From the NCBI GenBank assembly GCA_022821905.1, contig JAJECS010000024.1, positions 248,001 to 312,000 on the forward strand: 64,000 nt of DNA. The letters run 5' to 3'. Every line of letters starts with the position of its first letter. The first letter of the stretch is position 1. Both the position numbers and the translations under genes were made by a program. Shown piece after piece: positions 4,481-51,057 of this stretch. The notes below the pieces were generated by a model. The model was given only the letters and a program-made list of their open reading frames with translations, had not been told where the DNA came from and did not search any database. The stretch comes from Chloroflexota bacterium (GTDB taxonomy: Bacteria; Chloroflexota; UBA11872).

Positions 4481-4581
4481 TGACCGCCCGCCTTCACCGG
4501 ACCGGCTGACCCACCTGCGGCCCACCGGCGACCCGCAAGCGCCGATTTGAGCAATGCATGAGGCCTCTCGCGACGCTCGTG

Positions 4582-17664: not shown

Positions 17665-18189
17665 GTGCCAACCGCCCAGCTCCTCGACGCTATCCGAGAC
17701 GACGACCACCTGTTGGGCCGCTATCAGGTAACTTTCATGCTCTCTCCGCCGCTTTTGGCTCCGATAGGTGCCAACCTTCCCACCCTTGACTGGCACTCGA
17801 TACCCTATGGCGCAGCACAAGTTTCCAGAGTCCCAAACGATAAGCGCGGTGTATATGCCCTAGTAATAGGCACCGATCCCGCCTCAGTACCTCCCCATGG
17901 ATATGTTTGTTACATCGGCATCAGCGGCCATAATTCTAATCGATCACTCCGGTCGCGCTATCGCGATTATTTGAACGAAAGGATTTACGCTAAGCGCAAG
18001 CATATTGCGCACTTGATAGTAAAATGGCACGAAGTGCTGCAGTTCTGCTTTGCCCCCGTCGATAGCGACGTCACATCAGACCAACTTTCCCTCATCGAAA
18101 AGAGCCTCAATGACGCATTTATGCCTCCATTTTCACGCCGCGACTTTAGCGCCGAAATTGCCGCCACACGTCGGGCTTTTCGAGGATGA
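17665..18189 (+). CDS. GIY-YIG-like nuclease domain protein
   Basis: GVYALVIGTDP...GYVCYIGISG...SLRSRYRDYLNERI; probable GTG start at 17665 with GGAAGG upstream; stop overlaps next ATG (ATGA). Confidence 0.6.
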   Translation: MPTAQLLDAIRDDDHLLGRYQVTFMLSPPLLAPIGANLPTLDWHSIPYGAAQVSRVPNDKRGVYALVIGTDPASVPPHGYVCYIGISGHNSNRSLRSRYRDYLNERIYAKRKHIAHLIVKWHEVLQFCFAPVDSDVTSDQLSLIEKSLNDAFMPPFSRRDFSAEIAATRRAFRG

Positions 18190-19448: not shown

Positions 19449-19887
19449 GTTGGGCCTGCGATCGCACCCATGAGCGGTGGCGATTCACAACAGGCGAGGA
19501 TCATTCAGGGCTGGATGCGAGCGGTGGAGAAACTCCCACGAGCCGGCCGGGCACAAAGGTTGCCTTACAGGAGTTTGGCTTTGGGCATTGCAGTCTCGAC
19601 TAGAGGGAAGCGCCCGGTTTGGCAGGCCGTGAATCGATCGTCCTTGAGTTCGTCGTCACAAAGGAGCCGAATTGGCCGGCACGTCTGCCCCAAGAGCGCT
19701 CCACGGGTGTTTACGGTCACGGACAATGTGTGAGACCGCGCCGGTGAGACCGTGGGGTGATATTCGCTGTTTGCGGAGCGAGCGCGAGCTTCCGCCCGTG
19801 AGCTATTGGTGCGTAGAGCTCGGGTCGTTTACGTAGAATCTTGGGGTGGTAGCCATTCTCGCTGAGACCCGTGGACGGTAGGGACCA

Positions 19888-22059: not shown

Positions 22060-22062
22060 CAC

Positions 22063-22284
22063 ATGGTTATGCTTTCGGAACGCCGGATCGCAGAGGTGGT
22101 CGGCGAACGGGTGGTGCTCCTTTGGGAGCGGGGCCCTGGGTATCGCAATGGTCTGACTGCGGCCCTCGTTGAGATCGTGAGCGCACAGGACGAAGGATTC
22201 TCGGACCGCCATAGGAGAGAGCGAGTCAAACGCATCATTGAGCGCCTCGGGGCGCAATTGCCGGTTCAGCAAGGGGACAGCTAG
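22063..22284 (+). CDS. small hypothetical protein (73 aa) between helicase and SMC-like ATPase
   Basis: MVMLSERRIAEVVGERVVLLWERGPGYRNGLTAALVEIV...; stop overlaps next GTG start. Confidence 0.6.
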   Translation: MVMLSERRIAEVVGERVVLLWERGPGYRNGLTAALVEIVSAQDEGFSDRHRRERVKRIIERLGAQLPVQQGDS

Positions 22285-24452
22285 TGCGTCTCATTCGCGC
22301 CCGCGTCCGGAACTTCAAGTTGTTAGAGGACGTCGAGCTTGAGTTCTCGACGAAGAGAAACCAGCCACTAACGGTGATCCGGGCCGAGAACGGATCCGGC
22401 AAGACATCTCTTCTGTACGCATTTCAATGGGCCTTTCACGGCGCGTCCGGTTTGCCAGCCATGGCGAGAGACCTGCGGCTCACCTCCACGGCGACGCCAT
22501 TTGGTCAGGCGACCACCGTGTCAGTCACGATTGAGTTTCAAATCACGGATCACCTCGGCAACTCCGCGCGCTATCGCCTCATTCGCTCAATTGTCGAAAC
22601 TCCTACCGCAGAAGACGCGTTCGATCGTCAGCCAGAACAGATTCGCCTCCTCCGGATCACTGCAAAGGGTGAGGATCCGGTCGCGTCTGCTGACGCAACG
22701 ATCAGAGCTTGGCTCCCCGACGAATTGCGCGATGTCTTCTTTACCGACGGCGACTCTGTGCAGACATTCATCTCGGGACAGATTGGCGCCCGGCAGCGCC
22801 AGAGTCGTGTGCAAGACGCCATACGAGACTTGCTCGGCATCGATAGATTTAGGACGGCAGCAAGCGATATTGAGGCGGCCTATCGCAGCCTCCGCGCTGA
22901 GGCAGCGAAGTCAGGTGGGCGCAATACGTCCAATCTCGAGTCAATGCTCGAGGAGGCAGTTAGGCAGATCGACCTAGCGGTTGCGGACCTCGCCAAACTG
23001 CGCGAGCGCCAAGCGAATATGGCCGAACAGCGCGCTAGGTGGGACAGGGAACTTCGGGGGATGAGGGGCATTGGCGAGCTCGACGAGATTAATTCGCGAA
23101 TCGAGCGAGCCGAGAAGGAGCGGGACAGGCTGGAGCGCGAGCGTTCAGCAGCACTTGTTCGAATGCGTGATTCACTGAAGTCCGAGGACTACTCATGGGA
23201 GTTCATGAACGTGAAGTTGCGTAGCGGCGTTGGTGTGCTAGCCGACCTCGCCGATCGCCGCATCATTCCGGGAGCATCGGTTGAAGTGCTGGCAGACCGG
23301 CTCGAACTCGGCGAGTGCATCTGCGGCGCGTCGCTTGAGCCGAGATCCGAGCACCGTGAGCACGTCGAGCGCCTCTTGGAGGAGCAACGAGGCGTTTCAG
23401 AAAGCCTACAACGACTCACCGAACTCTCTCACCTCGCCCGACGAGCCGACGCTGAGGAACAGCGGAGGAGGGAGTCCAGCCGAGCCTTCCCACACACCGC
23501 TGCCCAGCTGCGCCAAGAGTTCACCGAGGCTTCGGACGGTCTTCGCGCGAAGGCGCTCGAACTCGAGCAGCTGAAGTTGCTCCGCGGCAGTATCGATGAA
23601 CGGCTTGTGCGAGACTTGACCTCGCGGATTGAAGGTGTCGACGCCAAGATTGCGCAGGCACATCAGGAGATCGGAGCCAAGGAAGTCGAACTCGAATTGG
23701 CGCGCGAGCGACAAACTGTGCAGGAAGAAGCACTGGACGCCGCACAAAAGGAAGCCAGAGTCTCCAAAGAGGTTGCACTCAAGCGTGACGTGGCCCAGGA
23801 TTTGACGAATCTTGCTGCAGATGTCTTGCGAGTACTCGAAGGTGACTATGTCAGGCGCGTATCGGAGCGGATGAACAGCCTCTTCATGGAGATCGTTGGC
23901 ACGCCCGACGATCCCTTACGTAGGGACTTCGGCTCCGAGCTCTTCGCTAGGGTCCACATTGACGGCGCTTTCAACATTTGCATCGACACCTTCGACGGGA
24001 GACGACTCGATCCAGACTTCGAACTGAACGGCGCATCAAAGCGCGCCCTTACACTCTCGTTCATCTGGTCCCTAATGGAAGTCTCAGGGGCGACCGCACC
24101 CCGTATGATCGACACCCCGCTTGGAATGGTTTCAGGCGGCGTAAAGCTCCGGATGCTGGATGCAATCACTACTCCTCCGGCGGACACCCTCCCAGAATTT
24201 CAGGTTATTCTCTTCCTCACTCGCGCGGAACTGCGTGACGCAGAGAACCTAATTGACGGCCGAGCCGGTGCCATCATGACGCTGTCGTGCTCCGAACACT
24301 ACCCGATTGACCTAGTCCATTCTTGGGGCAGTGACTATCCAGTCTCACGCATCTGCTCGTGCGATCACCGCCAATCGTGCCGCATGTGCGCGCGACACTA
24401 TGACGGACTTCACGGCGTGGTATTTCAGAATACTGCGGGGATACTGAAATGA
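22284..24452 (+). CDS. DndD-like SMC/Rad50-type AAA ATPase
   Basis: 722 aa; MRLIRARVRNFKLLEDVELEF..., VIRAENGSGKTSLLYAFQWAFHG, long coiled coil around CICG, MIDTPLGMVSGGVKLRML signature region, Cys-rich tail. Confidence 0.8.
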   Translation: MRLIRARVRNFKLLEDVELEFSTKRNQPLTVIRAENGSGKTSLLYAFQWAFHGASGLPAMARDLRLTSTATPFGQATTVSVTIEFQITDHLGNSARYRLIRSIVETPTAEDAFDRQPEQIRLLRITAKGEDPVASADATIRAWLPDELRDVFFTDGDSVQTFISGQIGARQRQSRVQDAIRDLLGIDRFRTAASDIEAAYRSLRAEAAKSGGRNTSNLESMLEEAVRQIDLAVADLAKLRERQANMAEQRARWDRELRGMRGIGELDEINSRIERAEKERDRLERERSAALVRMRDSLKSEDYSWEFMNVKLRSGVGVLADLADRRIIPGASVEVLADRLELGECICGASLEPRSEHREHVERLLEEQRGVSESLQRLTELSHLARRADAEEQRRRESSRAFPHTAAQLRQEFTEASDGLRAKALELEQLKLLRGSIDERLVRDLTSRIEGVDAKIAQAHQEIGAKEVELELARERQTVQEEALDAAQKEARVSKEVALKRDVAQDLTNLAADVLRVLEGDYVRRVSERMNSLFMEIVGTPDDPLRRDFGSELFARVHIDGAFNICIDTFDGRRLDPDFELNGASKRALTLSFIWSLMEVSGATAPRMIDTPLGMVSGGVKLRMLDAITTPPADTLPEFQVILFLTRAELRDAENLIDGRAGAIMTLSCSEHYPIDLVHSWGSDYPVSRICSCDHRQSCRMCARHYDGLHGVVFQNTAGILK

Positions 24453-24874
24453 CAAATGTCGCAAACCAGTACGCCAATCAGGATCTCTTCATCGCTCGAC
24501 CATTTTGGGAACAGCTTAGAGGTTTCGTGTCTCGTGCTGACCAGGATGGTCTTCCATTCTTACGACAGGTTGATGCATGGTGGGCTGCGATGGCAATAGG
24601 AGTACAGCACGGGGAGCGGGCAAAGCTACCCTCGGATTTGGTCAAGTTCAATGACGGAGGAATCCTAAACTCCGATCCCTGGCGAATTACGCACTTGGAA
24701 CTTCTTGCCCTTTCCGAGGGTGGGCCGGAGATGCTTGACAAGCCGGCAGAAGTGATCCGGATGGCTTCCGAATATGCAAATGCCGGATTCCCAGAACTTC
24801 TGGCTAATCTCATTGGACAGCCCGAGCCGACACTAAACTTAATACTGAGACTTGATGATCTCAAGCATTCGTAG
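24449..24874 (+). CDS. small hypothetical protein (141 aa), translationally coupled to the DndD-like gene
   Basis: ATGA overlap; MTNVANQYANQDLFIARPFWEQLRGFVSRADQDGLPFL... Confidence 0.6.
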   Translation: MTNVANQYANQDLFIARPFWEQLRGFVSRADQDGLPFLRQVDAWWAAMAIGVQHGERAKLPSDLVKFNDGGILNSDPWRITHLELLALSEGGPEMLDKPAEVIRMASEYANAGFPELLANLIGQPEPTLNLILRLDDLKHS

Positions 24875-24897
24875 ATTTCCTGACCTGGCAAGCTCGT

Positions 24898-27162
24898 CTA
24901 TCTCTGGGACACTACCTTCGCAAGATCGAGCAGAACGGACTCCAAATCCTGATCGACCTCCGGTATTGGCAAGAGCCCCGCTAGATCAGCATCTCCACGC
25001 TGCACTAGCACGCCGCGTACGTCAATCGGTGACGTGTCAATGGCAGTGGCGATGACTTTGAGGGAGTTATCGTGATCGACAGCTATTCCCGTTAGCAGCC
25101 GGATGGCCTCGGTAGCATCGTATCCGTCAAGCTCTCGAGGGATCCTTTCGACGCTCACGCAGCCCTGCGCTAAGTCAAAATCCAGGCGAACCCTCTCGCC
25201 CTCAATAGCTCCGGTTGCGGTCGCCATCACGCGTAGCGATCCTAGGATCGGGCCAGTAGCCGAAGTCATAGGCCAAGTGACGTTTAGCGCTCCGTCCACA
25301 TTCGAAAACGATCGAGGCCGGCCGGGGGCGAGACCAAGCGCGGCCGCGACAGGTCCGCTCAGCGGGCGGCCGCTGCCTCTTAGGAGTTCCGCGTCTGCGG
25401 GAACGACGAGGCTGATTTTCTTTGCCGTGGATCGGTATGCTCCCACGCACCTTTGGAACGTTCCGCCAACCTCGAATTGCTCGTCGTCTCTGCGCAGTCG
25501 AATGCGGTCTCCCTCAACCACGAACATCGGCGCAGTAGCGTAGGCGCGAATCGAGTTCTCCTTAACGCCGAACTGTTCTACCAGTTCGCGCACAACAAGA
25601 TCGATCTCGACTTGGCCTCCTGCGTTGTTTATGCGCTGGGCGATCTCGTCGGTGATGCCCGTGTATTCTTCCATCCCCCAAGCGCGTAACGCCCACTCAG
25701 TGCGATTTGTCCTAGCGAGCCGATCATCCTCGAAGAATCGCGCCCGCACACCTCTTACGTTGTGGCCCTCACCGACCATCGAGACAAGAGTGTCCGCATC
25801 TATTGGCTCACTCTCGGATGCGAGGAGTGCAACGCACTTGTCGACCACGCTGCCAGTCCACACCATCAAGAACTCGCCATTTCGGCGGAAGCGGCCCGAT
25901 TGATCCAACCAAGCGTCGTGGAACTCATGTCGCACACCGAACCTGGCAAGCCACCCGTAGGCGTAGTCGAGAGGGAGGAGACCACACTCATCAGCCATCG
26001 CCTCGAGGTCCGACCCCTCTGGGATATCAGCGTGCTCAAATACCATCCAACCGTGTCGCACACGATACGGCCCAGCTAGGCGGAGAATGATTGGGCGCAA
26101 CAGCCTGGCAGCCTCCAGGCCCGCCCCGTGCAGACTCTTCTCCAAAGCTAGGCAAGTATTCTCGCTAGTGGCTGGCGCTATCGCCCCTAGTGCCGACCGG
26201 AGGTCGGCTGCTCGCCAGTGGAGCAGACTGAATTCCCGTTGACTGAGTTGGTGGGAGATGCGCTCCTCTGCCTCTCCCTGCAACTGCCGCACGCGCTCGC
26301 GCGTGACGCCGAGTTCCTTCCCAACGACGGCGAGAGTTGCTCCGTCGATCATTCGACGGCGGTAGACCATAAGTTGACGCTCATCCATGCAGGCAATGAT
26401 TCGTTGAGCAAGGTCGTCAAGCGTCACGTTCAGCAAGACTGAATCAGCCAGCGCCGCCAAATTGATTTGGCTGCATTGACGCCACAGCTCAGCCAAGTCG
26501 GCTGGAAGCGATCCCGCATCCGAGTTTAAGTTGATGACATCTCGAAGTTCAGTGGCATCACGTTCCCGAGCGCCCCAAGCAGCCAGTGTGCGGAGACCTG
26601 CCACCATCTCCGTCACGCGGACATCCGATGCGTCGGAATCACGCGCCACGGCGATCCCTGGCGTCACCTGACTTGTTTCCAGATCGACATGCTGCAACTG
26701 CTCGTCGCACACTCCGCCTCCTTCAACCGGCGGCGGCCCGTCACCAGCATCACTTGCTGAAAAGACAGTGAGTGACTGCCCAATGCTGGCAATAACAATG
26801 TCCTTAGCGCTCCGCCAACCCACCCCGCGCAGCTCGAAGAGCCGCTCTGTTGTCAGGTCTGCCAGATCGCCCCAGGTGACGACGCCCGAGCGAACCAAGG
26901 CGTTGTAGCTGCGGGTTCGAAGCAAAGTGCTTGGGATTCGATTGGAATGCCACCGATTGAGTCCCGGCAGCATATCGCCGAACGGAATTCCCTGACGCTC
27001 CATAACCGTCCATGCCGTTGCGTGTGCAATTTCGCGAATCTCCTCGCCGCTTAGGCTGTCGAGTGCGGCGTCGGCTGGCAGTCGGGTCTTGGCGATATCT
27101 TCGCCGCGAATCCCTAATCGAAGGAGGAAATCTGCAACGAGCAGCATTCGCGTCACACACAC
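24898..27162 (-). CDS. large RpoA-CTD-like + sigma70-region-4-like DNA-binding protein
   Basis: 754 aa; LTTERLFELRGVGWRSAKDIVIASIG (alpha-CTD-like HhH) and LMVYRRRMIDGATLAVVGKELGVTRERVRQLQGEAEERI (sigma region 4 HTH). Confidence 0.7.
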   Translation of the reverse strand: MCVTRMLLVADFLLRLGIRGEDIAKTRLPADAALDSLSGEEIREIAHATAWTVMERQGIPFGDMLPGLNRWHSNRIPSTLLRTRSYNALVRSGVVTWGDLADLTTERLFELRGVGWRSAKDIVIASIGQSLTVFSASDAGDGPPPVEGGGVCDEQLQHVDLETSQVTPGIAVARDSDASDVRVTEMVAGLRTLAAWGARERDATELRDVINLNSDAGSLPADLAELWRQCSQINLAALADSVLLNVTLDDLAQRIIACMDERQLMVYRRRMIDGATLAVVGKELGVTRERVRQLQGEAEERISHQLSQREFSLLHWRAADLRSALGAIAPATSENTCLALEKSLHGAGLEAARLLRPIILRLAGPYRVRHGWMVFEHADIPEGSDLEAMADECGLLPLDYAYGWLARFGVRHEFHDAWLDQSGRFRRNGEFLMVWTGSVVDKCVALLASESEPIDADTLVSMVGEGHNVRGVRARFFEDDRLARTNRTEWALRAWGMEEYTGITDEIAQRINNAGGQVEIDLVVRELVEQFGVKENSIRAYATAPMFVVEGDRIRLRRDDEQFEVGGTFQRCVGAYRSTAKKISLVVPADAELLRGSGRPLSGPVAAALGLAPGRPRSFSNVDGALNVTWPMTSATGPILGSLRVMATATGAIEGERVRLDFDLAQGCVSVERIPRELDGYDATEAIRLLTGIAVDHDNSLKVIATAIDTSPIDVRGVLVQRGDADLAGLLPIPEVDQDLESVLLDLAKVVSQR

Positions 27163-27385
27163 TCCCGATTCGCGTAATCTAATGTCGTCGCGACTCGTGG
27201 GACCCTGGGCTTGCCCCTACAACCCGGCCAATCTGATGGCCTGTGGGCATTGAAGTACCCGGCTAACCGATATCTCTCAGTTGAGGGCCGTGATCCGCCG
27301 AGCCTAGCAAAAGGACCATCTCAGCTCACCCAAGGGCGCTGCGTGCCTAGGGTGCCATCCGATCAGTCAATCGTTTAGGCGCGAA

Positions 27386-28552
27386 TCAGGGAATACACGC
27401 CGCAGCAGTCGCGAGTCGCGAGATCGCCGAGGCTACGAGCCGGCTCGCCTCGCGCACATCGTGTTCTGTAGTGAGTCGCCCGAAGCTGAATCGCACCGAC
27501 GACGCAGCCTGAGCCGCACTCAGTCCCATCGCAGTGAGTACATGTGATGGCTCTGGCACACCGGAGGCGCACGCCGCTCCGGTCGCAGCCGCGAGGTCGG
27601 GCTGGAGGGCTGCCAACAGGTCCTGCGCATTTAGTCCGCTGAATCGGAGGTTTGTATTTCCGGGATGTCGCCGGGAGGCACAAGGGCCGTTGACGGCCAC
27701 CGTTGGATAGGATCGCAGCACCTCGCGTACGAAGGCGTCCTTCAAGCGACGGACCGCACGCCGTTCTTTCGCGGCCTCACGACTGAGGATCGAAGCGGCA
27801 GCACCCATGCCGACGCAGAGCGGCACCGCAACCGTACCCGACCGCAATCCTCTCTGCTGCCCCCCACCGTAGATCTGCGGCTCAATGCAGTTCTCGATCT
27901 CGCGGCGAATATAGAGGGCACCGATGCCTTTCGGCCCATAGAACTTGTGTGCCGACAGGCTGATGAGATCGGCGTGCGAAGTCAGGTCCGTGGTATCCAT
28001 CGCACAGGGCGCCTGTGCAGCATCACAATGCAGGAGTGCTCCGTGAGGGCGGAGCACTTCGGCAACACTCGGGATGTCCTGCAGAGTCCCCACTTCGTTG
28101 TTTACGGCCATGACAGATACCACGAGCACCGTCTCGTCGAGCAGGTCAGCCAGCACATCGAGCCGCAGCGCGCCCTCTCGGTCTACGGGGACCAACTCGA
28201 CGCGTAGCCCGTCGTGTTCGGCGCTGGCCCGTGCGGCGGCAAGGATGGACTTGTGCTCGACCGCACTTAGTAGGATTCGGCGCCGTGCGGGAGACGCTCT
28301 CCGAGCTAGACCGACCAAGGCTAGATTGTTGGCTTCGGTGGCGCCTGACGTGAAGACGATCTCGGCTCCATCGCCCCCGATCAACTCGCCGACCTCCGCT
28401 GCAGCCCGAGTCACCGCCTCGTCGGCGTGCCAACCCATCACGTGGTCAGACGAGTGGCAATTCCCGAACACCTTGTCCCAAAACGGGGCCATCGCTTCGA
28501 GTACCCGGGCGTCCGTCGGCGTAGTGGCTTGATAGTCCGCGTATATCGTCAC
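27386..28552 (-). CDS. cysteine desulfurase (DndA/IscS-like)
   Basis: Probable GTG start at 28552; VTIYADYQATTPTDARVLEAM, FTSGATEANNLAL, LSAHKFYGPKGIGALYIRR, GGGQQRGLRSGT, AATGAACASG. Confidence 0.85.
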   Translation of the reverse strand: MTIYADYQATTPTDARVLEAMAPFWDKVFGNCHSSDHVMGWHADEAVTRAAAEVGELIGGDGAEIVFTSGATEANNLALVGLARRASPARRRILLSAVEHKSILAAARASAEHDGLRVELVPVDREGALRLDVLADLLDETVLVVSVMAVNNEVGTLQDIPSVAEVLRPHGALLHCDAAQAPCAMDTTDLTSHADLISLSAHKFYGPKGIGALYIRREIENCIEPQIYGGGQQRGLRSGTVAVPLCVGMGAAASILSREAAKERRAVRRLKDAFVREVLRSYPTVAVNGPCASRRHPGNTNLRFSGLNAQDLLAALQPDLAAATGAACASGVPEPSHVLTAMGLSAAQAASSVRFSFGRLTTEHDVREASRLVASAISRLATAAACIP

Positions 28553-28593
28553 GCGCTCATGCTCCTGCGGGCCGCGAGTCTTGCGCACAGAGG

Positions 28594-28632
28594 CCGTGTC
28601 AAGACACGGTATGCCCAATCTATGTAAGATTG
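28594..28632. promoter_or_regulatory. two adjacent palindromes in the divergent promoter between cysteine desulfurase and DUF4007 genes
   Basis: CCGTGTC-AA-GACACGG (28594-28609) and CAATCT-ATGTA-AGATTG (28616-28632), both perfect inverted repeats. Confidence 0.5.
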
Positions 28633-29595
28633 CAACTGGACGCAGCATCCAGGCAGGAGGTGAGCTATCTGAGGAATCTGCTTGAACAGGACGGCTACAA
28701 GCCTCGGCTCTCCGGCCACGAGACCTTTCCCCTTCGGTACGGTTGGCTCAAGAAAGCGTTCGACGCGGTGTCTACGAGCAGAGGCCACCGTGAAGCGCTG
28801 TTCTTGTCCGACGACGCGATCGCGAAGTTCGGCGTCGGCAAGAACATGGTTGCAGCTATCCGGCACTGGGCAGTTGCTGCTGGGGTGTTAGACGATGACT
28901 TACGCTCAACTGCGCTCGGAGAGCTCATCTTCGATGACCAAGGGCTCGATCCTTGGATGGAGGAGCCATCGACGTCCTGGCTTGCACACTGGCACATCGT
29001 CGGTCGTCCTGCAAAAACAACTTGGTATTGGGCATTCAATCACTTCCACGGGCTGACGTTTGAGCGAGAAACGCTCGCGCGCGGGATTGCCGACCTCGCA
29101 GAAAGGCGCAGTTGGCCACGTGCCTCAATCTCGACCATCCGACGTGACGTGGGCTGCTTTGTGCGTGCGTACGCGCCCGCGGCGGCACTCGAGTATTCGC
29201 TCCGAGAGGATGCTCTGGAATCCCCGCTTGCCGAACTCGGGCTTATACGCGCGACAGGCCGCCGCGATGGATTCCGATTCGTGCGCGGGCCGAAGCCAAC
29301 GCTCCGTGCCGGTGTCTTCTGTTTCGCACTAAGCTCCTTCTGGCAGGCGTACGCAGCCGGCGCCAATACGCTGTCCTTCGAGGCCATCGCCCTTGAACCG
29401 GGTTCTCCTGGGCGAGTCTTCGTGCTGGGGGAGGACGATCTCGTCGAATTGCTCGGTGCGATCGAGAATGTAACGGACGGCGTCTATCGCTGGTCGGAGA
29501 CCGCAGGCCTGCGGCAGGCGATCCGAGGGCGTCCCTTGACTAACGACGAGATGCTCCGATTGGTGCGCGCAAGCTATCCCGGGAGAAGCGCATGA
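28630..29595 (+). CDS. DUF4007 family protein
   Basis: 321 aa; KPRLSGHETFPLRYGWLKKAFDAV...AIAKFGVGKNMVAAIRHWAVAAGVL; stop overlaps next ATG. Exact start uncertain. Confidence 0.75.
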   Translation: MQLDAASRQEVSYLRNLLEQDGYKPRLSGHETFPLRYGWLKKAFDAVSTSRGHREALFLSDDAIAKFGVGKNMVAAIRHWAVAAGVLDDDLRSTALGELIFDDQGLDPWMEEPSTSWLAHWHIVGRPAKTTWYWAFNHFHGLTFERETLARGIADLAERRSWPRASISTIRRDVGCFVRAYAPAAALEYSLREDALESPLAELGLIRATGRRDGFRFVRGPKPTLRAGVFCFALSSFWQAYAAGANTLSFEAIALEPGSPGRVFVLGEDDLVELLGAIENVTDGVYRWSETAGLRQAIRGRPLTNDEMLRLVRASYPGRSA

Positions 29596-40175: not shown

Positions 40176-40282
40176 CTAGAATTAGCCGGAATTCACGGCG
40201 CGACGTGTGCCACGAACGCCCCTAGCCTGGCTAGTTTGCCCCCCAGGGTCGCGGAGACAGAGTAAGGCCATCCACTTCGAGT

Positions 40283-40337
40283 GGTGCCGAGGGCGGGACT
40301 CGAACCCGCACAGCCCGGAGGCCACTAGCCCCTCAAG
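40283..40337. repeat. attR-like 55-bp direct repeat (tRNA-Leu(GAG) 3' fragment)
   Basis: Identical to 6992-7046, constant offset 33291; flanking bases differ on both sides. Confidence 0.85.
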
Positions 40338-40704
40338 GTTTCGTTCGCCTGCCGCGTGCCTCCCTGGTCTTCCCTTCTGTTACGGCACGTACCGGCGCCA
40401 AATCTGACGCATAGGCTAGTGCCCAACGTCCGGCTGAATCTCGTCCATCCGTCGCCAATCGGCGACTGTTCAATTGTAACGGTCCATAGACGATGCGTGG
40501 ACACGAATAGCCATCGTCGTGCGGGTTTCGAGAGCCCGCTGAGGGTGCCGCACTTCGATGGCGAGCGCCTACCACTCCTGGGACATCACCACTGCCCCGT
40601 GCCCGCTACCCGCTTCCAGGCGCTTCCTGCGAACATTTGACACTGCTTCAGCAGTATGTACCATTATGGTGTATCTAACGATTAGAACACCTTGGAGGCC
40701 ATTG

Positions 40705-43700
40705 GTGTCAACCCACCACGATCTCTCGGGTGACGACATCCGCGCCATTCGGCTGAATCTCAAACTTACGCAGGTCGAGGCCGGCGAGTTGATCGGCGGC
40801 GGTCCGCGCGCGTTTGCCAAGTACGAGGCCGGCGCCGTAAAGCCATCGGCCTCCGTTGCACGCCTGCTCCGTCTCCTTGAGGCTGATCCGGCCGCAATCA
40901 GCACCTTACGCGGCGATGGCGTTCACCCGCGTCCAGCGGCTGCGGCTGGTCCGTTCGAGGTAGCGGGCGATCACGTGGCGGCGCTGACGGAACGGCCACT
41001 TGCCAAGCTCCTGCGACGGCTGCTCGGCGCCGAGGCTCAGACATACGGTCTGCCGTCGGACGGCATACATGTTGCCGAGAACATCCACGCTCCTGACGGA
41101 GGCGAGGACGGACACATCTCATGGACTGGAGGACCAGACCGGACGCAATTCCTGCCTTCCCGCAGTTGCCAGTTTCAGTTGAAGGCCGGGGGAATCTCAC
41201 CAACGGCCGCCGGCCGCGATGTCCTGACAAGCGACGGAAGCCTCAAGAATATGGTGCGTTCGCAACTTCAGGCCGGTGGCCACTACATCCTGCTCACGAC
41301 GCACCGGTACGCGCGTAGGGCTATCAGGAGTCGAGCATCTGCGATTCTCAAGGCCATCCGAGGGGCGGGCCTCCCCGTTGCTGAAATCCAGATTCAGGTC
41401 CGGGACGCCGATCAGATTGCCGACTGGGTCAATACACATCCAATCGTCGCTGCCTGGCTACGAGAGCAAACACAGCCTGGAAGTAGTGGACCCTTTCGGT
41501 CCGGGAATCGGTGGGCTGACCGGTCAGAGCACGAAAGATCGCCTTGGGTAGAGGACGAACGCCTTCCCAGACTGCGTGATTGGCTTCTCCAGCGCGCCGA
41601 GCAACCGCGCTCCAGCGCGCATGTGGTGGGTCGTGTCGGAGTCGGGAAGTCCCGGCTGGTCAACGAAGCTCTTTGTCCAAGTGACGCAAACGGCGCGATT
41701 GGATGCAATTTGAGCGATCTTGTGATGTATGCCGTCGAATCTGAGGTCGGCACCCCGGCGATCTACTCCGCCGTACAGAGCTTGTCGGACGCTGGCACTC
41801 GGGCCGTCATCGTGGTCGATAGCTGCACGCAGAGGACCCGAGCAATTCTCACTGGGATGGTCTCCCGCCAAAGCAGCCGGGCGTCGCTAATCACAATTGG
41901 CGATTACGTCCGAGGCGAAACCTCGGACGCCGAGACCTTGGACGGTGAGACCTCGGACGGTGAGAATTTCGAGGTCGCTCAGGCTTCCACGTCTGTCATC
42001 GAGGCCATCATTGCCCGCGCCGCGCCAGCGCTGCCACTAGCAGATACGCATCGCGTGGTGCGCTTCTCGAATGGTCTTCCAGAAATCGCCATCCGAATCT
42101 CGCAAACTTGGGGCGCAGCTAACTCCCTAGCCCATGCCACTGACGCTGACCTCGTCGACGCTTACGTCCTTGGCCGAGAATCCGACGATCGTGAGTTGCT
42201 GCTGAAGTCCGCAAGGCTGCTTGCCGCATTTGGGGCAGTACGACTGAACCCGCCGGAGTATGACCAACTTCCCGCGGTTGCAAGTCTCGGGTCCGGACTC
42301 TCCGATTCCGATCTTCGGTTTGCCGTCGATGAACTTGCGCGACGGAGCGCATTCAGGCGACGCGGCGGGTTGGTGGTTATCCAGCCCCTGCCCATCGCGT
42401 TGACGCTGGCCGATCGCCAGTGGCGCGCGTGGAGCCCGGACAAGTGGGACTCAGTGCTAACCGGCGACTTCGACTCAGGACTGCAGGTCCGAGCAGCTAA
42501 ACAACTTGCCCTTCTGAACGAGTTTGAGATCTCGCAAAGAGTCCTTGACTACCTCTGCCGCGCGGGCGGGCCGTTGGATGGGTTGTCCGGCATAACTGCA
42601 CGCGGCCGCTCAGAGCTCTTGTCGTCACTCGCCGAAGTCGACGCCGTGCGCGTAGGCAAGCGAATCGAACGCTCGCTCCTCGATGTCGAGGACCTGCGCC
42701 AGATAGAAGGGACTGCGCGGCGCCACCTTGTCTGGGCGCTTGAGAAGATCTCGTTTCACGCCGATGCCTTCGACATTGGGGCGGGCCTCCTGCTGCGCCT
42801 CGCCGCTGCCGAAAACGAGAGCTGCAGCAACAACGCCACCGGGCAGTTCGCCAAGCTCTTTCCAGTTCAGCTCGCAAACACCGCCGCCGACGGCGAAACA
42901 CGGCTGGCTTTCTTGGACGAAGCGGCCACGATTGATGAGCCAACTTGGCAATTCGTCATCGTCGATGCTCTGGCCGCAGGCTGCGAGACTCGCCACTTTA
43001 TGCGAATGATGGGCCCTGAAGCGCACGGGTCCCGCCCGGCACTTCAGCCCTGGAACCCGCCTACCGGCGAAGCGGCTACGGCGTACATCAAGGGCTGCGT
43101 GCAACACCTCTCTCGATTCGCGGCGCTGCCTTCGTTGGTAGGCGCCAAAGCGCGCGTTGAACTCGGGAGTCGCCTAGGGCCCCTGATTGGCTCGGGACTC
43201 TTGGACATCGTGGAGTCCTCCACGCATCACGTACTCCAGACCGTCGACGTCTGGCCTCAGGCTGTGGAGAGCCTTGGCAACTTTCTCGCATTTGACGGCG
43301 CGCGCGCCGACAAGGATGTCGTCGATCGCGTTGAATCGTTGATGGCGGCCCTGCAACCGGCAAGTCTGCAATCGCGTGCCCGTTTCCTGATTACAGAAAC
43401 GCCGCGGGACTTTCTCATGAAGGAGGTCCATGACTTTGACGCCGCCCACAAGCGACAAACCGAGGCCGTCCGGTCGCTCGCTGCCGAATTCCTGGCGGAA
43501 CCGAGCCAGCTCATGGAGGTGCTGCCCAAACTCAGCTGCGACGAGCAACGTATGGCGTTTGGATTCGGTGAAGCGCTCGCCGAATTGTCCGACCCGCCCG
43601 AGGCCTGGCTGGAGCCAGTGATCTCAGCTCTGACTGAGATACAGCAGAGCAACCGAAACTACACCCTGCTTTGCGGCTACGCGATCGCAAGCGCCAAGGG

Positions 43701-44769
43701 CAAGCCGCACACCGCCCAGCAGCTCAAGGAACGGATCGCGCATTCGCCCGAACTCGCGCCGGCGCTGCCAGTAATCTGCTGGAATCTCGGCATCTCGCCG
43801 GAAGACATCCAGCTGGCAATTCGAGCGATTCGCTGCGGCCACCTAGATCCCCGCCAATTGAGCCGGTGGTGCATGGGCGGTGTGCTCGCCAAGGTGGCCG
43901 CCACGTCAGTGGCTGGGTTGCTGGATGAGCTCTTCGAACACAGCGCCGAAGCCTTTGCGGTCGGCCTGGAACTCATGGGGATGTATGCGCACGGACGAAT
44001 TGAAGTTCTTGAGGAATTACGACCACAGGTCCTCAGGGCGACCAATTGCATCTCTCGGTGGCGCCAAGTGCCCGGCGAGACAATGGGAGCTCATCATTTC
44101 AACGAGGTCATGACTTGGATCCTGAACAAGGGGCGCCAGGATCCCGACGCGCGCACCGTCGCGTTGAATATATCCAGAGCGCTCATCGACTGCGACCAGC
44201 GAATCGACGACAGCTTCATTCGGCCGTTGCTACCGCGCCTGCTGTCCGACTTTCCGGAAATCGCCTGGTCGTTGATTGGCCAGGCCATCGTGTCCGACCG
44301 AAGGCGAGCTTGGCAACTCGAGTTTGTCTTGGGATCTTCCCTCTCGTTCGATGACGAAGCCAACCCGACGATTCTGCGTCTTCCAGAGGAGGCGTTGTTC
44401 GCGTGGTGCCACGCGAATCCAGACTCCGCGCCAGCTTTCACGGCGACGGTCTTGCCAGTCCTAGCGCCGCAGCCGACCGAATCTCCGCATCATGGTCTGC
44501 ACCCGGTTACGGCACGTCTGCTCGATTCGTTCGGCGATAGACAGCCGGTGCTCGACGCTCTGGCCAGCAACATCAGCACCTTCGGCTGGACGGGATCTGT
44601 CGTTCCCTACTTCGCCCGCTATGAGGAGCCGCTGCAGGCGCTCTTTGACCATCACCAGGTCAGAGTCCGTCTCTGGGCACGACGAATGCTCAAACAGGTG
44701 CGTTCGGAGATGGACCGGTACCGCAAGGAGGACGACGAGTGCGAGGCAGAGGGAGAAATGTATGGCTAG
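40705..44769 (+). CDS. MqsA-type HTH + putative PD-(D/E)xK-like nuclease + STAND-like NTPase fusion
   Basis: GTG 40705 after TTGGAGG; LSGDDIRAIRLNLKLTQVEAGELIGGGPRAFAKYEAGAVKPSASVARLLRLLEADP (MqsA-like HTH); GGEDGHISW...SCQFQLKAG (D...QxK nuclease-like); AHVVGRVGVGKSRLVNEAL Walker A; RAVIVVDSC Walker B-like; ~900-aa helical C-terminus. Confidence 0.65.
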   Translation: MSTHHDLSGDDIRAIRLNLKLTQVEAGELIGGGPRAFAKYEAGAVKPSASVARLLRLLEADPAAISTLRGDGVHPRPAAAAGPFEVAGDHVAALTERPLAKLLRRLLGAEAQTYGLPSDGIHVAENIHAPDGGEDGHISWTGGPDRTQFLPSRSCQFQLKAGGISPTAAGRDVLTSDGSLKNMVRSQLQAGGHYILLTTHRYARRAIRSRASAILKAIRGAGLPVAEIQIQVRDADQIADWVNTHPIVAAWLREQTQPGSSGPFRSGNRWADRSEHERSPWVEDERLPRLRDWLLQRAEQPRSSAHVVGRVGVGKSRLVNEALCPSDANGAIGCNLSDLVMYAVESEVGTPAIYSAVQSLSDAGTRAVIVVDSCTQRTRAILTGMVSRQSSRASLITIGDYVRGETSDAETLDGETSDGENFEVAQASTSVIEAIIARAAPALPLADTHRVVRFSNGLPEIAIRISQTWGAANSLAHATDADLVDAYVLGRESDDRELLLKSARLLAAFGAVRLNPPEYDQLPAVASLGSGLSDSDLRFAVDELARRSAFRRRGGLVVIQPLPIALTLADRQWRAWSPDKWDSVLTGDFDSGLQVRAAKQLALLNEFEISQRVLDYLCRAGGPLDGLSGITARGRSELLSSLAEVDAVRVGKRIERSLLDVEDLRQIEGTARRHLVWALEKISFHADAFDIGAGLLLRLAAAENESCSNNATGQFAKLFPVQLANTAADGETRLAFLDEAATIDEPTWQFVIVDALAAGCETRHFMRMMGPEAHGSRPALQPWNPPTGEAATAYIKGCVQHLSRFAALPSLVGAKARVELGSRLGPLIGSGLLDIVESSTHHVLQTVDVWPQAVESLGNFLAFDGARADKDVVDRVESLMAALQPASLQSRARFLITETPRDFLMKEVHDFDAAHKRQTEAVRSLAAEFLAEPSQLMEVLPKLSCDEQRMAFGFGEALAELSDPPEAWLEPVISALTEIQQSNRNYTLLCGYAIASAKGKPHTAQQLKERIAHSPELAPALPVICWNLGISPEDIQLAIRAIRCGHLDPRQLSRWCMGGVLAKVAATSVAGLLDELFEHSAEAFAVGLELMGMYAHGRIEVLEELRPQVLRATNCISRWRQVPGETMGAHHFNEVMTWILNKGRQDPDARTVALNISRALIDCDQRIDDSFIRPLLPRLLSDFPEIAWSLIGQAIVSDRRRAWQLEFVLGSSLSFDDEANPTILRLPEEALFAWCHANPDSAPAFTATVLPVLAPQPTESPHHGLHPVTARLLDSFGDRQPVLDALASNISTFGWTGSVVPYFARYEEPLQALFDHHQVRVRLWARRMLKQVRSEMDRYRKEDDECEAEGEMYG

Positions 44770-45236
44770 ACCAGTTGGATCGATGAAACGACTCCTACAG
44801 TCGGACAGCAGCGCTTACTTTCTATGACATCGATGTCCGATCCGTGCACTTCCGGTCGACTTCTTGGATTAATTCGCGTCTAAATTCTGCAGACCTAAGT
44901 ACGACGCATCTGGGCACGATTGGACGCTTCCGACGAACTGTGCGGCTCGGTCGCCAAGTGGTTAGGTGGAAACATTCTATCCCCGATGCGCGTACTGCGG
45001 CGCTTTGGCAAACGGCCATTCGAACACATTGCATACATCCAGATGGAACTCTCACGGAGTCTTCCACTCGAACGAATTAGGCGCATCTGCACACGTGCTG
45101 GTAGTTAGTCGTGAATGGGTCGAACCGGCCTGCCCCATGCCACTGAGTAGACGCGACCACCGAAGGATACAGACCATTTCATGGAATATGTTAGCATTTG
45201 AAGCTTACAATGCGGACTCGGGAATCTAGGTGTGCC

Positions 45237-45599
45237 ATGAAAACTCTTGGACAGCGAATCCGAGAATTGCGAGAAGAGCAAGACGTCTCCCTCCGGGAGC
45301 TGGCAACCGAGATCCATGTGTCGGCTGCGTTTATGTCTGACGTTGAGCTAGGACGTCGAAATCCGTCAGATAGACATTTATGTGAAATAGCGCGTGCGCT
45401 AAAAGCGTCGCTGGAAGATCTTGCACAGTTTGACACCCGACCACCATTGCGTGAATTTCGCCGAGCTACGCAAACCAATCCAGAAATCGGATTTGCATTT
45501 AGACAGATGATGGAGAAAGAGATTAGTGCACAGGAACTCTTGGACTTTATCAGAGAGAGAGATGAGCGTTCAGAGGACGGACGGGATGTGGCCAATTGA
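45237..45599 (+). CDS. XRE-family HTH regulator
   Basis: MKTLGQRIRELREEQDVSLRELATEIHVSAAFMSDVELGRRNPSDRHLCEIARAL; coupled to an ImmA-like gene. Confidence 0.85.
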   Translation: MKTLGQRIRELREEQDVSLRELATEIHVSAAFMSDVELGRRNPSDRHLCEIARALKASLEDLAQFDTRPPLREFRRATQTNPEIGFAFRQMMEKEISAQELLDFIRERDERSEDGRDVAN

Positions 45600-46321
45600 G
45601 AAAGTGGAGAGCCTCGTCAGGGCCGTTCATTGATCGCATCTACATTGAGGAAGGCGAAATCGAATCGATCGCCACTAATGAACTCCGCAGTGTGGGACTA
45701 CTTCCTACGATGCCGGGTCCGATACGAGTAGAACGATTTATCGAAAAGCGATTTGGCATAGTCCCTCGCTACGACGAGCTTCCACCAGGAGTCGTGGGCT
45801 TCACAAGATTTGGCGCGCACGGCGCGGAAGAGCTTGTCGTATCAAGATCACTTGCGGATGATCCAAGTCTGGCGGCGCAGCGTCGAATCAACAGCACCCT
45901 CGCTCACGAGGCTGGCCATATCTTGCTTCATACTCGATTATTCACCGAACGGCTTCAGTCGCAATCTAAGGATATGTTTCAAGATGATGTGGACGTTTGC
46001 CGGCGGGCAGTTCTTTGCCGATCTAGGGCGTTTGGGGAAATCTCCACGGAGTCCCGTGGCAGCCACTATGACGGCCGTTGGTGGGAGTACCAGGCTAATC
46101 TGGTCATAGGAGCTCTCCTCTTGCCACGTTTGCTGGTGTCCGTAGCCCTTGAAGAGATCCTCGCGTTTCGCGGCAATCTAGGGGTCGCGCAACTGAGTCA
46201 CAATAAGCGCGATGAAGCGGCCCGAGTGCTTAGCAGTGTGTTCGATGTGAACCTTCCGGTGGCGAGGATCCGAGTCGAGGCGCTGTTTCCCGCAGCCTCT
46301 GATCGGCAATTGACGCTCTAG
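45596..46321 (+). CDS. ImmA/IrrE-family metallo-endopeptidase
   Basis: RRINSTLAHEAGHILLHTRLF (HEAGH zinc motif). Confidence 0.85.
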   Translation: MRKWRASSGPFIDRIYIEEGEIESIATNELRSVGLLPTMPGPIRVERFIEKRFGIVPRYDELPPGVVGFTRFGAHGAEELVVSRSLADDPSLAAQRRINSTLAHEAGHILLHTRLFTERLQSQSKDMFQDDVDVCRRAVLCRSRAFGEISTESRGSHYDGRWWEYQANLVIGALLLPRLLVSVALEEILAFRGNLGVAQLSHNKRDEAARVLSSVFDVNLPVARIRVEALFPAASDRQLTL

Positions 46322-46502
46322 GCATTGTGTTGTAGGCTGTTCGCCATGTCAGCGGACAGTGACGCTTCGATGTGCCGGCACCTAAACCCTACGGTCGTGG
46401 TCGCCACATTCTCCTCTCGCGTGACGGTTTCGGGCGACTGGTGTTGACCACTGTGGATTCAGTCGATCAGCAATTGCCGTCTTTCTCTAGGAGCCGCCTG
46501 GA

Positions 46503-47597
46503 ATGACATCGTCGCGCCGACGGCTGCGAGTCTTGAGCATTGACGGCGGTGGGATGCGCGGCCTCTATAGCAGCGCATACCTATGGAGTCTAGCCAAGCA
46601 GGCGGAGGCTCGGCAACGCGTCCACGGCATCGACATCGGAAAGGCATTTGACCTGATAGTTGGCACCAGCACCGGAGGAGTCATTGCTTGCGCCCTTGCC
46701 GCCGGAATATCGCTGGAGAAGGTCGTTGAACTCTACAGTGAGAATGCTAAGGCGATATTTCCGGCCAAGGTGCCCGACCGAGTGTCTCCGTCAGCCATTT
46801 GGCGGGCCATCCGATGGCCGCAATACCTTGCGCGAGGAACTAGGCAGCTTGAGATTGCGCTAAGCGAGGTGTTCGGCGAGACAACCGTGGATGAAGTTTA
46901 CAACGAAAGGGGAATCGCCATCTCAATCACAGCAGTCGAAATGTCTCATCACCGCAGTTGGATTTTCAAGACTCCACATCTCGGTGGCCAGCGCGATGGA
47001 AGATTTCGGCTCGTGGACGTGTGCCTCGCGACAAGCGCAGCCCCACTATATCGGTCAATGGCACGGGTGTCTGATCCAACTTCAGATTTCCACCGATATA
47101 CCTTTGTGGACGGCGGTCTGTGGGCAAACAATCCTGTATTGGTGGCAATGATCGACGCTCTCAGGATGTCCAAGCCTGGCGACAGGATCGAGATCTTCTC
47201 GCTAGGAACTAGCCCACGACCACCGGGAGGCATATATAGTGATGACGATGCACACCGTGGATTCTTCAAGTGGAAGTTTGGTGGAGAGGCTGCGATAGTT
47301 TCCCTCGATTCACAGACCTTTGCGTACGACAAGATGGCTAGAATGTTGGCTAAACATGTTGACCGTGATTGCCGAGTAATTCGCCTTCCGACTGCCTCAT
47401 TGCCGGCAGACGCAATGCCGTATGTGAATCTTGACGAAACTAGTAGGATGAGTCTGCAAGCGCTCACCGACCAGGCAATGGCTGATGTCTGGCATACGCT
47501 GGCCATATGTGACGACTCATCGGACCAGGACGCCTTGACACTTACCTGCTTCATGAATGCCTTGGCTGCGACCGGCGATGATCGTCCACTGCGCTAG
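46503..47597 (+). CDS. capV: patatin-like phospholipase, CBASS effector
   Basis: LSIDGGGMRGLYSSAYL, DLIVGTSTGGVIAC, FVDGGLWANNP; next to CD-NTase, Cap2 and Cap3. Confidence 0.88.
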   Translation: MTSSRRRLRVLSIDGGGMRGLYSSAYLWSLAKQAEARQRVHGIDIGKAFDLIVGTSTGGVIACALAAGISLEKVVELYSENAKAIFPAKVPDRVSPSAIWRAIRWPQYLARGTRQLEIALSEVFGETTVDEVYNERGIAISITAVEMSHHRSWIFKTPHLGGQRDGRFRLVDVCLATSAAPLYRSMARVSDPTSDFHRYTFVDGGLWANNPVLVAMIDALRMSKPGDRIEIFSLGTSPRPPGGIYSDDDAHRGFFKWKFGGEAAIVSLDSQTFAYDKMARMLAKHVDRDCRVIRLPTASLPADAMPYVNLDETSRMSLQALTDQAMADVWHTLAICDDSSDQDALTLTCFMNALAATGDDRPLR

Positions 47598-47691
47598 GCG
47601 GACTTCGCAATGACAGCTCGCTGTCAAGAGCCGATATTGGCTCGCCACCCGGCCCGGATTCTGGGCCATCGTCGAAAGACTGGACAAGCAA

Positions 47692-48768
47692 ATGTTTAAC
47701 TGCCACGGCGGCATCTTGGCTTATCACAATGAAGAGGTGACGCTCCCTGAATCCGAGAGAACAGAAATGCGTCAGCGTCGCGATACGAACAGGGAGCGCC
47801 TTCGGCTTGGCCTCGAGTCGAACGGTCAGGTGAGTCCTGCCGAATTCCATTCCCAGGGCTCGTATTCCCACCGGACGATGGTGCAACACCGAGACAAGGA
47901 CTATGACATTGATGACGGGGTTTACTTCTGGCAAGAGGACTTGCAAGAGTCGAACGGATCTGACGCGTCGGCAGCGGACGTCAAGCGCATGGTGCGGGAC
48001 GCCCTTCAGGATCACAGGTTCAATAGACCGCCACGGGTGCGCACCAACTGCGTTCGGATTTACTACGAAGAAGGCTATCACGTAGACGTTCCCGTCTACC
48101 GAAACGTGTCGACGCTAGATTATGCGGGCGAACCCGTGATTACGCACGAGATCGCTAGCACCGATTGGAAGGTATCGGATCCAGCTGCGGTTACCCAATG
48201 GTTTGCGGAAAACAACACGCGCAGGAGTCCGGACGCGACTAATGGGCGACAACTTCGCCGAATTACTCGGCTGCTTAAGGCGTTTGCGAACAGCAGGCAA
48301 GCGTGGCGGAGCCAGATCGCACCTGGATTTACGATTACCACCTTGATCGTCGACGAATGCTATCAGCCTGACTCGCTACGGGACGATCGTGCGCTCTATG
48401 AAACCATGGCATCCATGCGGGACCGACTTAACTTGAGCCTCGAAGTCTCCCACCCAGTTGTGGAAGGTGAGATGTTGACATCCGGTCCCTTTGACAGTCG
48501 TTCGAAGGAGATGCTCGATCGGCTAGCGTGGGCACTCGATGAGCTTGAGATCCTGTTTGGATCGGATTGCACCTATGAGCAGGCCGCCAAGGCGTGGGGA
48601 GATGTGTTCAACACGCAGTTCTTCCGAGAGCGCGTTGAAAAGTCCGGCCGAGGTCAAGATGGATCTACAACGACCAGTCGGGTTTCGTCGACACACTTGC
48701 AAAAGCTTGGCGAGGATTCTGAAATCCACAGCGCCGTTGACAAGCGCGGTGGCGGCCGATATGCCTGA
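47692..48768 (+). CDS. CD-NTase (DncV-like cyclic oligonucleotide synthase)
   Basis: GSYSHRTMVQHRDKDYDIDDGVYF (GS...DxD); HVDVPVY; C-terminus GGGRYA. Confidence 0.85.
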   Translation: MFNCHGGILAYHNEEVTLPESERTEMRQRRDTNRERLRLGLESNGQVSPAEFHSQGSYSHRTMVQHRDKDYDIDDGVYFWQEDLQESNGSDASAADVKRMVRDALQDHRFNRPPRVRTNCVRIYYEEGYHVDVPVYRNVSTLDYAGEPVITHEIASTDWKVSDPAAVTQWFAENNTRRSPDATNGRQLRRITRLLKAFANSRQAWRSQIAPGFTITTLIVDECYQPDSLRDDRALYETMASMRDRLNLSLEVSHPVVEGEMLTSGPFDSRSKEMLDRLAWALDELEILFGSDCTYEQAAKAWGDVFNTQFFRERVEKSGRGQDGSTTTSRVSSTHLQKLGEDSEIHSAVDKRGGGRYA

Positions 48769-50593
48769 TAGTCCGTCGGCTTCTCTGGGCCGAACTCGAT
48801 CGGAGATGGCGATGGCTCAGGTGGACGACCTGATTCGTGGCAGTTTGAATGGCTCCAGGATGCCCTCAGCTGACATTTCAAGATATGTGAATCGAGCTTT
48901 TGTCGCGGGCTGGACCTTAAATGTCGGGTTTTCGGATGCCGTCGATCGAAGACTTAATGTCCTTGTCGACGGATCCTTTCCATATGCGCTACCTCGCATT
49001 GCATTTTCTGAGGTGCCCGAGAAATTAACTTGGCCGCATGTAGAGATAGACGGAGTCCTCTGTGTTGTACCAGACGAGACAGCGATATCACCGGAAAGGC
49101 CCTGCAGTGTTACCAAGTACTTGCTCGGCGCTGCGTGCGATTTGATAGAGCGATCGATTGCAGGCCTAAATCAGGAAGACTTTCGTATCGAATTCTTGAG
49201 CTATTGGAATATCGCAACGCAGAATCACGGCGATGGCTTTACGAGTTTACTGCGTCCAACAGGGCCCAGCCGAGAAGTGTTCGTGTGGCGTCAAGGCCGG
49301 CTTCAGGTGGTCGGAGAAGACGAGTCTTCGCTTAGGCAATGGATGTCTAGGCGATTCGGATCGTCCGTCGGGACCGACACTAGAGTCGATCGGGGTGTAC
49401 TAGTGTGGCTTCCGGAACCTCCTCTTCCTGCCGACTATCCGAAGTCTGGAAGTGACGTGTTGGCACTAGCCCGGAATAGTTCTAGCGACACATTAGATCT
49501 GTTGAGTCAGATCGTAGCATCAGTCCCACCAAAGATTGATGTTTTTCTTGGTGCACCGACCCACAACGGCACCTGCTTTGCGGCTGTGACGACGTTTCGT
49601 CCTGTGCAGCGCGGTCGACGCACAAGATCGCTGGTGGATGCTGGATTCAGGCCAGGGCATGTTCCTGCGAAGATTTTGTTGCCACGGTATCTGTCTGGAC
49701 GCAGTAGCGTTGCGAGGAAGAGAGTTCAGAGAGCTGACCACGGCTGGGTACACGGACGAGACCAAGATGACCATCAGAAGATTCTCAAGAATCGCAGCAT
49801 AGTAGTGCTAGGATGCGGTTCACTCGGCGGATCCGTGGCGCGGTTGTTGGCGCGGTGTGGTGTCGGCCGCCTGCTCTTGGTAGATCCACAAGACCTGGAT
49901 TGGGCGAACGTAGGCCGCCATACACTCGGTGCTCAAGCTGTAGGTAAGAACAAGGCATCGGCTCTGGCCGGCGAACTCGAGGAAGTCTATCCACATCTAG
50001 TTGCTGTCGCGTGGAAATCTGAGCATTTCGGACCATCGACAACGAACTTGGTCGAAGAGATGGCGACCTATGATTTAATCGTCAGTACCACGGGCAACTG
50101 GACGGCGGAGTGTTTTCTTAACGACGTTCAACGGGATTTGCCGGAGTGCTCGCCCGTCGTATACGGATGGCTCGAACCGCATGCATCGGCGGCACACGCG
50201 GTGTATATACCCCAAGGTGAAGCCTGCCTTAGGTGTGGATTACAAGACCACGGCAGACCACAGCTGGAGGTGACTGATTGGCCTGACAACAGAGCCAATT
50301 ACCAGGAGCCTGCCTGTGGTGCAGTATTCTCTCCCTATGGTCCGGTAGAGCTTGCTTGGGCGAATGCGCTGGTTGCAGAGTCCGCCATCGATGCTCTGAT
50401 CGGGGAGATTTCGGCGCCGATACACCGGATTTGGGTCGGCATGCAAAAGCGGATTGTCAGTGCTGGGGGCAGGTGGTCACAGCTCTGGATAGACACCATT
50501 GGCGATCCCGGAAATGGCGGTTTTCGGCTAGAGCGACCCTGGGGTCGATTGCCGAATTGTCCCGTCTGTACCCGTGCGGCTGCGGCTGCGTGA
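48761..50593 (+). CDS. cap2: Cap2 (E1-E2-like ubiquitin-transfer protein)
   Basis: ATG 48761 overlaps the CD-NTase stop; E2-like DGVLCVVPDE; E1/ThiF SIVVLGCGSLGGSVARLLARCGVGRLLLVDPQDLDWANVGRHTLG. Confidence 0.85.
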   Translation: MPDSPSASLGRTRSEMAMAQVDDLIRGSLNGSRMPSADISRYVNRAFVAGWTLNVGFSDAVDRRLNVLVDGSFPYALPRIAFSEVPEKLTWPHVEIDGVLCVVPDETAISPERPCSVTKYLLGAACDLIERSIAGLNQEDFRIEFLSYWNIATQNHGDGFTSLLRPTGPSREVFVWRQGRLQVVGEDESSLRQWMSRRFGSSVGTDTRVDRGVLVWLPEPPLPADYPKSGSDVLALARNSSSDTLDLLSQIVASVPPKIDVFLGAPTHNGTCFAAVTTFRPVQRGRRTRSLVDAGFRPGHVPAKILLPRYLSGRSSVARKRVQRADHGWVHGRDQDDHQKILKNRSIVVLGCGSLGGSVARLLARCGVGRLLLVDPQDLDWANVGRHTLGAQAVGKNKASALAGELEEVYPHLVAVAWKSEHFGPSTTNLVEEMATYDLIVSTTGNWTAECFLNDVQRDLPECSPVVYGWLEPHASAAHAVYIPQGEACLRCGLQDHGRPQLEVTDWPDNRANYQEPACGAVFSPYGPVELAWANALVAESAIDALIGEISAPIHRIWVGMQKRIVSAGGRWSQLWIDTIGDPGNGGFRLERPWGRLPNCPVCTRAAAAA

Positions 50594-51057
50594 TTTCTTA
50601 TCGCATCGGCGACTCTGGTGAATCGCTCCTAGTCACGACACAGGTACTTGAACACTTAACCGAGTATCGCCAGGTGGCTGACGACACGGATGAAGCGGGA
50701 GGGCAACTCTTCGCGCACTTTGTGGGCTGCGAGAGTCGAATAGTCCTGGCGACAGGACCCCGGGACTCGGATCGTCGTAGTAGGCATACATTTGTGCCTG
50801 ATCGAATCGCTGAGCGGAGGGAAATCAGCGACCTGTTCAAGTCCGGGTATCACTATATTGGAGACTGGCACACTCATCCGGAATTGGAGGCGTATCCTTC
50901 TGTCGATGACATAGAGAATTTCAAGGACGTGTTTAGAAAGTCGATTCATAACTTGGGTGGGTTTGTGCTAATTGTCGTCGGCATTTTGGCTCCTCCTGAA
51001 GGGCTGTTTGTAGGCTTATGCGACGGGGACGGACTTCACAGTCTAGACGTTTTCTGA
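50590..51057 (+). CDS. cap3: Cap3 (JAB/JAMM isopeptidase)
   Basis: GTG 50590 overlaps the Cap2 stop; YIGDWHTHPELEAYPSVDD JAMM motif. Confidence 0.85.
   Translation: MISYRIGDSGESLLVTTQVLEHLTEYRQVADDTDEAGGQLFAHFVGCESRIVLATGPRDSDRRSRHTFVPDRIAERREISDLFKSGYHYIGDWHTHPELEAYPSVDDIENFKDVFRKSIHNLGGFVLIVVGILAPPEGLFVGLCDGDGLHSLDVF

Follow-up and report, generated by a model that had tools for sequence, protein, structure and literature searches.

A candidate self-repressing NLR-like anti-phage nuclease of the PD-lambda-4 A family with a fused MqsA-type HTH domain

The control of lethal immune receptors at rest is an open question. CapH of CBASS is a separate repressor protein, which holds defence genes low until they are needed. 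RptR is likewise described as a separate repressor that holds defence genes low until needed (PMC12255303). The anti-phage system PD-lambda-4 was reported by Vassallo et al. 2022 (PMC9519451), and as defined in PADLOC it includes a B protein. Avs (AVAST) proteins are built in the order nuclease, STAND NTPase and long C-terminal sensor. The E. coli antitoxin MqsA binds AACCT(N)3AGGTT, two copies of which lie at mqsRA (PMC4894380).

The 64,000-nucleotide stretch of a Chloroflexota genome analysed here (the window) encodes a 1354-aa protein that resembles each of these in part. With PD-lambda-4 protein A it shares a full-length match (aa 84-1348) and a P-loop NTPase, but it adds an MqsA HTH with operators and has no B homolog in its genome. 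The domain order is that of Avs, and the structural matches include Avs3 and AVAST5; however, there is no Avs profile match, the C-terminus is HEAT/ARM-like, the nuclease motif is of Mrr type, and the HTH is extra. The HTH sequence, the ACC-N5-GGT operator and its presence in two copies in the protein's own promoter recall MqsA, although the zinc/toxin-binding domain is missing, the HTH is fused to an effector-sensor, and there is no MqsR. Whereas CapH and RptR are separate from their effectors, the putative repressor here lies within the effector, such that the receptor would carry its own repressor.

The best explanation, to which we assign a probability of about 0.77, is that the gene encodes a solitary, island-borne, self-repressing NLR-like anti-phage nuclease of the PD-lambda-4 A family; its defence setting, comprising Dnd genes, type II CBASS, and the type III R-M that adjoins several homologs, was counted in favour. 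Points counted against it are the missing B protein, the three fused genes that have no recognisable operator, the weak Mrr match and the predominance of MAGs among the fused homologs. In the proposed mechanism, the C-terminal solenoid would detect an infection cue, the STAND NTPase would switch and oligomerise, and the Mrr-like nuclease would cut nucleic acid, with the phage cleared or the cell aborted as the outcome. The N-terminal HTH would bind as a dimer to one or two ACC-N5-GGT operators that cover its own -10 and ribosome-binding region, and the ensuing repression would keep a potentially toxic protein at low expression.

Domain architecture and family

The gene and its parts are as follows (window coordinates).

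40705..44769, + strand: gene for the 1354-aa HTH-nuclease-STAND-solenoid protein; single unbroken frame, GTG start
40726..40911, + strand: MqsA-type HTH, aa 8-69 (PF15731, TIGR03830, 3fmy)
40912..40953, + strand: flexible linker of variable sequence, aa 70-83; relatives average 28% identity here, pLDDT <50 at aa 71-79
40954..41490, + strand: Mrr-like PD-(D/E)xK nuclease, aa 84-262 (D131GGED135, Q158LK160), from invariant residues, Mrr_cat profile comparison and model topology
41551..42114, + strand: STAND/NB-ARC-like NTPase, aa 283-470 (GRVGVGKSR 309-317, VVDSC 370-374, NGLP 456-459), from conserved residues, profiles and Foldseek
42190..42429, + strand: winged-helix region, aa 496-575, from model secondary structure
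42430..44766, + strand: HEAT-like alpha-solenoid, aa 576-1354, presumed sensor; AF2 mean pLDDT 89.6, Foldseek

The protein thus runs from HTH (aa 8-69) through nuclease (84-262) and NTPase with winged helix (283-575) to solenoid (576-1354). GTG 40705 is preferred over the upstream in-frame ATG 40558 because a start codon stands directly before the HTH in most homologs; with ATG 40558, the operators and promoter would fall within the gene.

That the first ~60 aa form an MqsA-like HTH, as the sequence-only reading proposed, is borne out by matches of aa 8-69 to PF15731 MqsA_antitoxin (E=4e-12), to TIGR03830 (4e-16, slightly below the model cut-off), and to the E. coli MqsA structures 3fmy, 2kz8, and 3gn5. 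The MqsA profile match is confined to profile positions 70-131, and the N-terminal zinc domain of MqsA is absent from the 1354-aa protein, while the HTH and operator features of MqsA are present in the protein and its promoter. The HTH is also the best conserved domain, with a mean identity of homologs to the window protein of 61.5%, against 53.7 for the nuclease, 43.4 for the NTPase, and 41.4 for the solenoid. As the genome is a 31-contig draft, the fusion might be taken for an assembly error or a decayed two-gene read-through; however, the same fusion at about 36 loci, with the HTH as its most conserved part, refutes this reading and leaves its probability negligible. With the fusion recurring at this many independent loci, a separate ORF for the HTH is excluded.

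The D...QxK segment singled out earlier as nuclease-like is now better defined. Thirteen diverse homologs all retain D131GGxD135...F157Q158xK160 without change, and profile comparison with Mrr_cat (GDGGIDGII...IQAK) places the catalytic motifs in register; this is a single pairwise comparison (E=0.0012, probability 20%), weak in absolute terms, whereas three other domains of this protein, run as controls, gave 0.3-0.5. In the model, strands 136-139 and 154-160 put the D on core strand two and QxK on core strand three, which is the arrangement of the PD-(D/E)xK core. By analogy, the Mrr-like domain may cleave nucleic acid. A Cap4 nuclease identity drew one weak match and was set aside in favour of Mrr, whose motifs align in register.

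The Walker A residues G309, G312, G314, and K315 are likewise invariant in the 13 homologs, as are D372 and C374 of the Walker B-like strand. The NTPase profile matches the plant NLR NRC1, and family members match NB-ARC, AAA_16, and nSTAND3, whilst Foldseek with the N-terminal 640 aa returned CED-4, NRC resistosomes, Avs3, AVAST5, a STAND-TPR protein, and Apaf-1. P-loop, Walker B-like strand, winged helix, and NLR/Apaf-like fold are therefore all present, and the earlier call of a STAND-like P-loop NTPase holds, with both the nuclease and the STAND fold recovered in profile searches. Confident AlphaFold2 models (pLDDT 87 and 90) render the C-terminus as an all-helical solenoid, for which Foldseek with the C-terminal 835 aa found HEAT/ARM solenoids (importins, CAND1, SF3B1, PP2A-A). 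The repeat-like character supposed for this region is thus retained, but its length is about 780 rather than ~900 aa. By analogy, the solenoid may serve as an infection sensor.

As to family, the protein matches PDLC03991 PD-Lambda-4_A in PADLOC-DB at E=4e-79 over aa 84-1348 (profile 4-1280 of 1283), a homology to protein A that spans its full length. PD-Lambda-4_A models are its sole PADLOC-DB matches at E<=0.01, a threshold at which no Avs model matched. The suggested resemblance to Avs-type proteins consequently survives as layout (N-terminal effector, STAND NTPase, C-terminal sensor) and not as family. The partner protein B (PDLC03992) is absent from the protein's own genome and from 20 genomes with fused or unfused homologs, and a search among the neighbours of homologs found no conserved partner gene.

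Predicted operators and the role of the HTH

Four features precede the start codon.

40637..40664, + strand: sigma70-like promoter TTGACA-16-TACCAT, the sole promoter-like site in 40400-40900 (10/12 matches, 0.2 expected)
40660..40670, no strand: operator 1, palindrome ACCATTATGGT, which overlaps the -10; the window has no other exact copy, and fused homologs conserve the site
40689..40699, no strand: operator 2, ACCTTGGAGGC, 5/6 ACC/GGT positions, overlapping the ribosome-binding site; 29 bp after operator 1
40694..40698, + strand: Shine-Dalgarno GGAGG, read from the sequence, 6-10 nt 5' of GTG 40705

With at most one mismatch and within 130 nt before the HTH, ACCATNATGGT precedes 31 of the 36 fused loci including the window (20 exactly), compared with 0.25 expected from shuffles and none of 34 unfused homologs. 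In L030 and L051 both operators lie about 450 nt upstream, separated from the fused gene by a PemK/MazF-like gene of the same operon; these two loci bring the total to 33/36. A recognisable operator is absent in L036, L045, and L050; the recognition helix is altered in L036 (GGGVRAFREYEGG) and L050 (GCGPRVFSKYESG), and unaltered in L045. When ACC-N5-GGT is scored relative to operator 1, a single sharp peak appears at +29 bp, where 13 of 30 loci have a second copy with at least 5/6 matches, and few or none do at other offsets. Across homologs, a -35 box at constant spacing shows only weak enrichment. Two other promoter palindromes, TCTAACGATTAGA (40674-40686) and ACTGCTTCAGCAGT (40642-40655), were considered and dropped, their conservation across homologs not being seen. 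The E. coli MqsA site has the same ACC-N5-GGT half-site and spacing as ACCATNATGGT, and a Methylocystis mqsRA operon, the antitoxin HTH of which is 49% identical, is preceded by ACCATTAAGGT / TACACCATTAAGGTGTA.

The prior suggestion that the HTH would add autoregulation is in keeping with a predicted operator conserved in fused and not in unfused genes, and with its second copy at +29 bp; autoregulation by the HTH is strongly supported by these comparisons, and autorepression is its simplest role. Since matching sites stand before nearly all fused genes, the sensing of infection, killing, and repression of its own gene are most likely functions of a single protein. Exact ACCATNATGGT occurs at five places in 2.95 Mb, of which the window site is the only one with an A/T centre, and this genome scan gave no sign of a regulon.

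The HTH might instead be a targeting domain which leads the nuclease to chosen sites in invader DNA, with the promoter site self-immune or incidental. The short flexible linker joining HTH to nuclease would suit such a role, yet the sites stand at promoter positions, often as a 29-bp tandem, before almost all fused genes and no unfused ones, and a nuclease guided to the promoter of its own gene would do harm; we consider this reading improbable. Slightly more improbable still is that the protein serves as the antitoxin-like partner in a toxin-antitoxin system, the toxin of which lies elsewhere or has been lost at most loci. The MqsA HTH is what such a system would provide, as are L030 (about 4560-4900) and L051, where the PemK/MazF-like toxin gene (PF02452, 1.2e-14 in L030) lies between tandem operators and fused gene. 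On the other side, the toxin-binding zinc domain is missing, the protein has an effector domain of its own, and no toxin gene adjoins the window gene, nor does one recur next to homologs.

A further possibility, which would extend the preferred self-repressing nuclease and is compatible with it, is that repression and immunity are coupled: a resting, inactive dimer would sit on the operators, and activation would convert it into an NLR-like oligomer off the DNA, with the nuclease armed and synthesis raised. One polypeptide is here both sensor and putative repressor, the HTH fusion was gained once and retained, and NLR-like folds form oligomers, all of which suit this extension; constant autorepression nevertheless accounts equally well for the sequence data, and we hold the coupled form only tentatively, as the less probable case. 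If it were true, then sensing, killing, and self-amplified expression would be one molecular switch. Because the receptor would carry its repressor and the operator is conserved, a single gene and its defined promoter region of about 70 bp offer a system in which a link between activation and expression can be tested.

Origin and distribution of the fusion

A scan of 84,980 species with an alignment query placed the HTH fusion at about 36 loci, mostly at 39-52% identity, and relatives without the HTH at 21-30%. Homologs without the HTH, plasmid-borne ones among them, begin with Met exactly at the HTH/nuclease boundary. A tree built from the shared region groups the 30 fused rows on one side of a single branch (SH-aLRT 100), and fusion state changes once, compared with 20.3 times in shuffles; by this phylogeny the HTH fusion has a single origin, gained once and kept. 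The N-terminal antitoxin-type HTH, which the sequence-only reading called unusual, is accordingly present as a fusion, but marks a conserved clade rather than a one-off. No published description of an MqsA-HTH/STAND fusion was found in the literature searched, the coverage of which was incomplete.

By record, the fused homologs belong to Pseudomonadota, Dadabacteria, Nitrospinota, Cyanobacteriota, Gemmatimonadota, and Bacteroidota/Rhodothermota, with partial fused copies in one Caldilineaceae bin and one Bryobacterales bin. As most are MAGs, binning errors could make this spread across phyla look wider than it is; many (L023-L058) are presumably from marine host-associated (sponge, coral) MAGs, judging from bin names. 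No close relatives were found in viral contigs, and phages yielded nothing beyond a standalone MqsA-type HTH. Same-genus genomes yielded no close homolog. A same-family genome contains a fragment (G007:C48:20902-21186, L003) corresponding to aa 189-283 at 60%, with one stop, which is possibly a decayed copy.

Genomic setting

An end repeat of tRNA-Leu(GAG), 55-74 bp long, occurs at 6992-7046, 40272-40345, and 331637-331696 (the last in contig numbering), with an intact tRNA-Leu(GAG) at the far repeat, about 43 kb beyond the 40272 copy. This looks like tandem islands at one tRNA-Leu(GAG), and because of these end repeats the gene at 40705 would be the first in an apparent integrated island.

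Directly downstream, at 45198-51057, lies a complete type II CBASS operon (XRE regulator, ImmA/IrrE-like, patatin, CD-NTase, E1-E2, JAB). The other flank carries Dnd-type phosphorothioation genes at 18186-33757 (DndB, cysteine desulfurase, helicase, SMC-like ATPase), together with DUF4007, PAPS reductase, and a 1112-aa nSTAND1 protein. A Schlafen/AlbA_2 domain protein is encoded at 38468-39187 (- strand), near a DUF5677 protein, and within the Dnd region, at 24898-27162 (- strand), lies the gene for a 754-aa protein that combines an RNA polymerase alpha C-terminal domain with a sigma region 4 domain.
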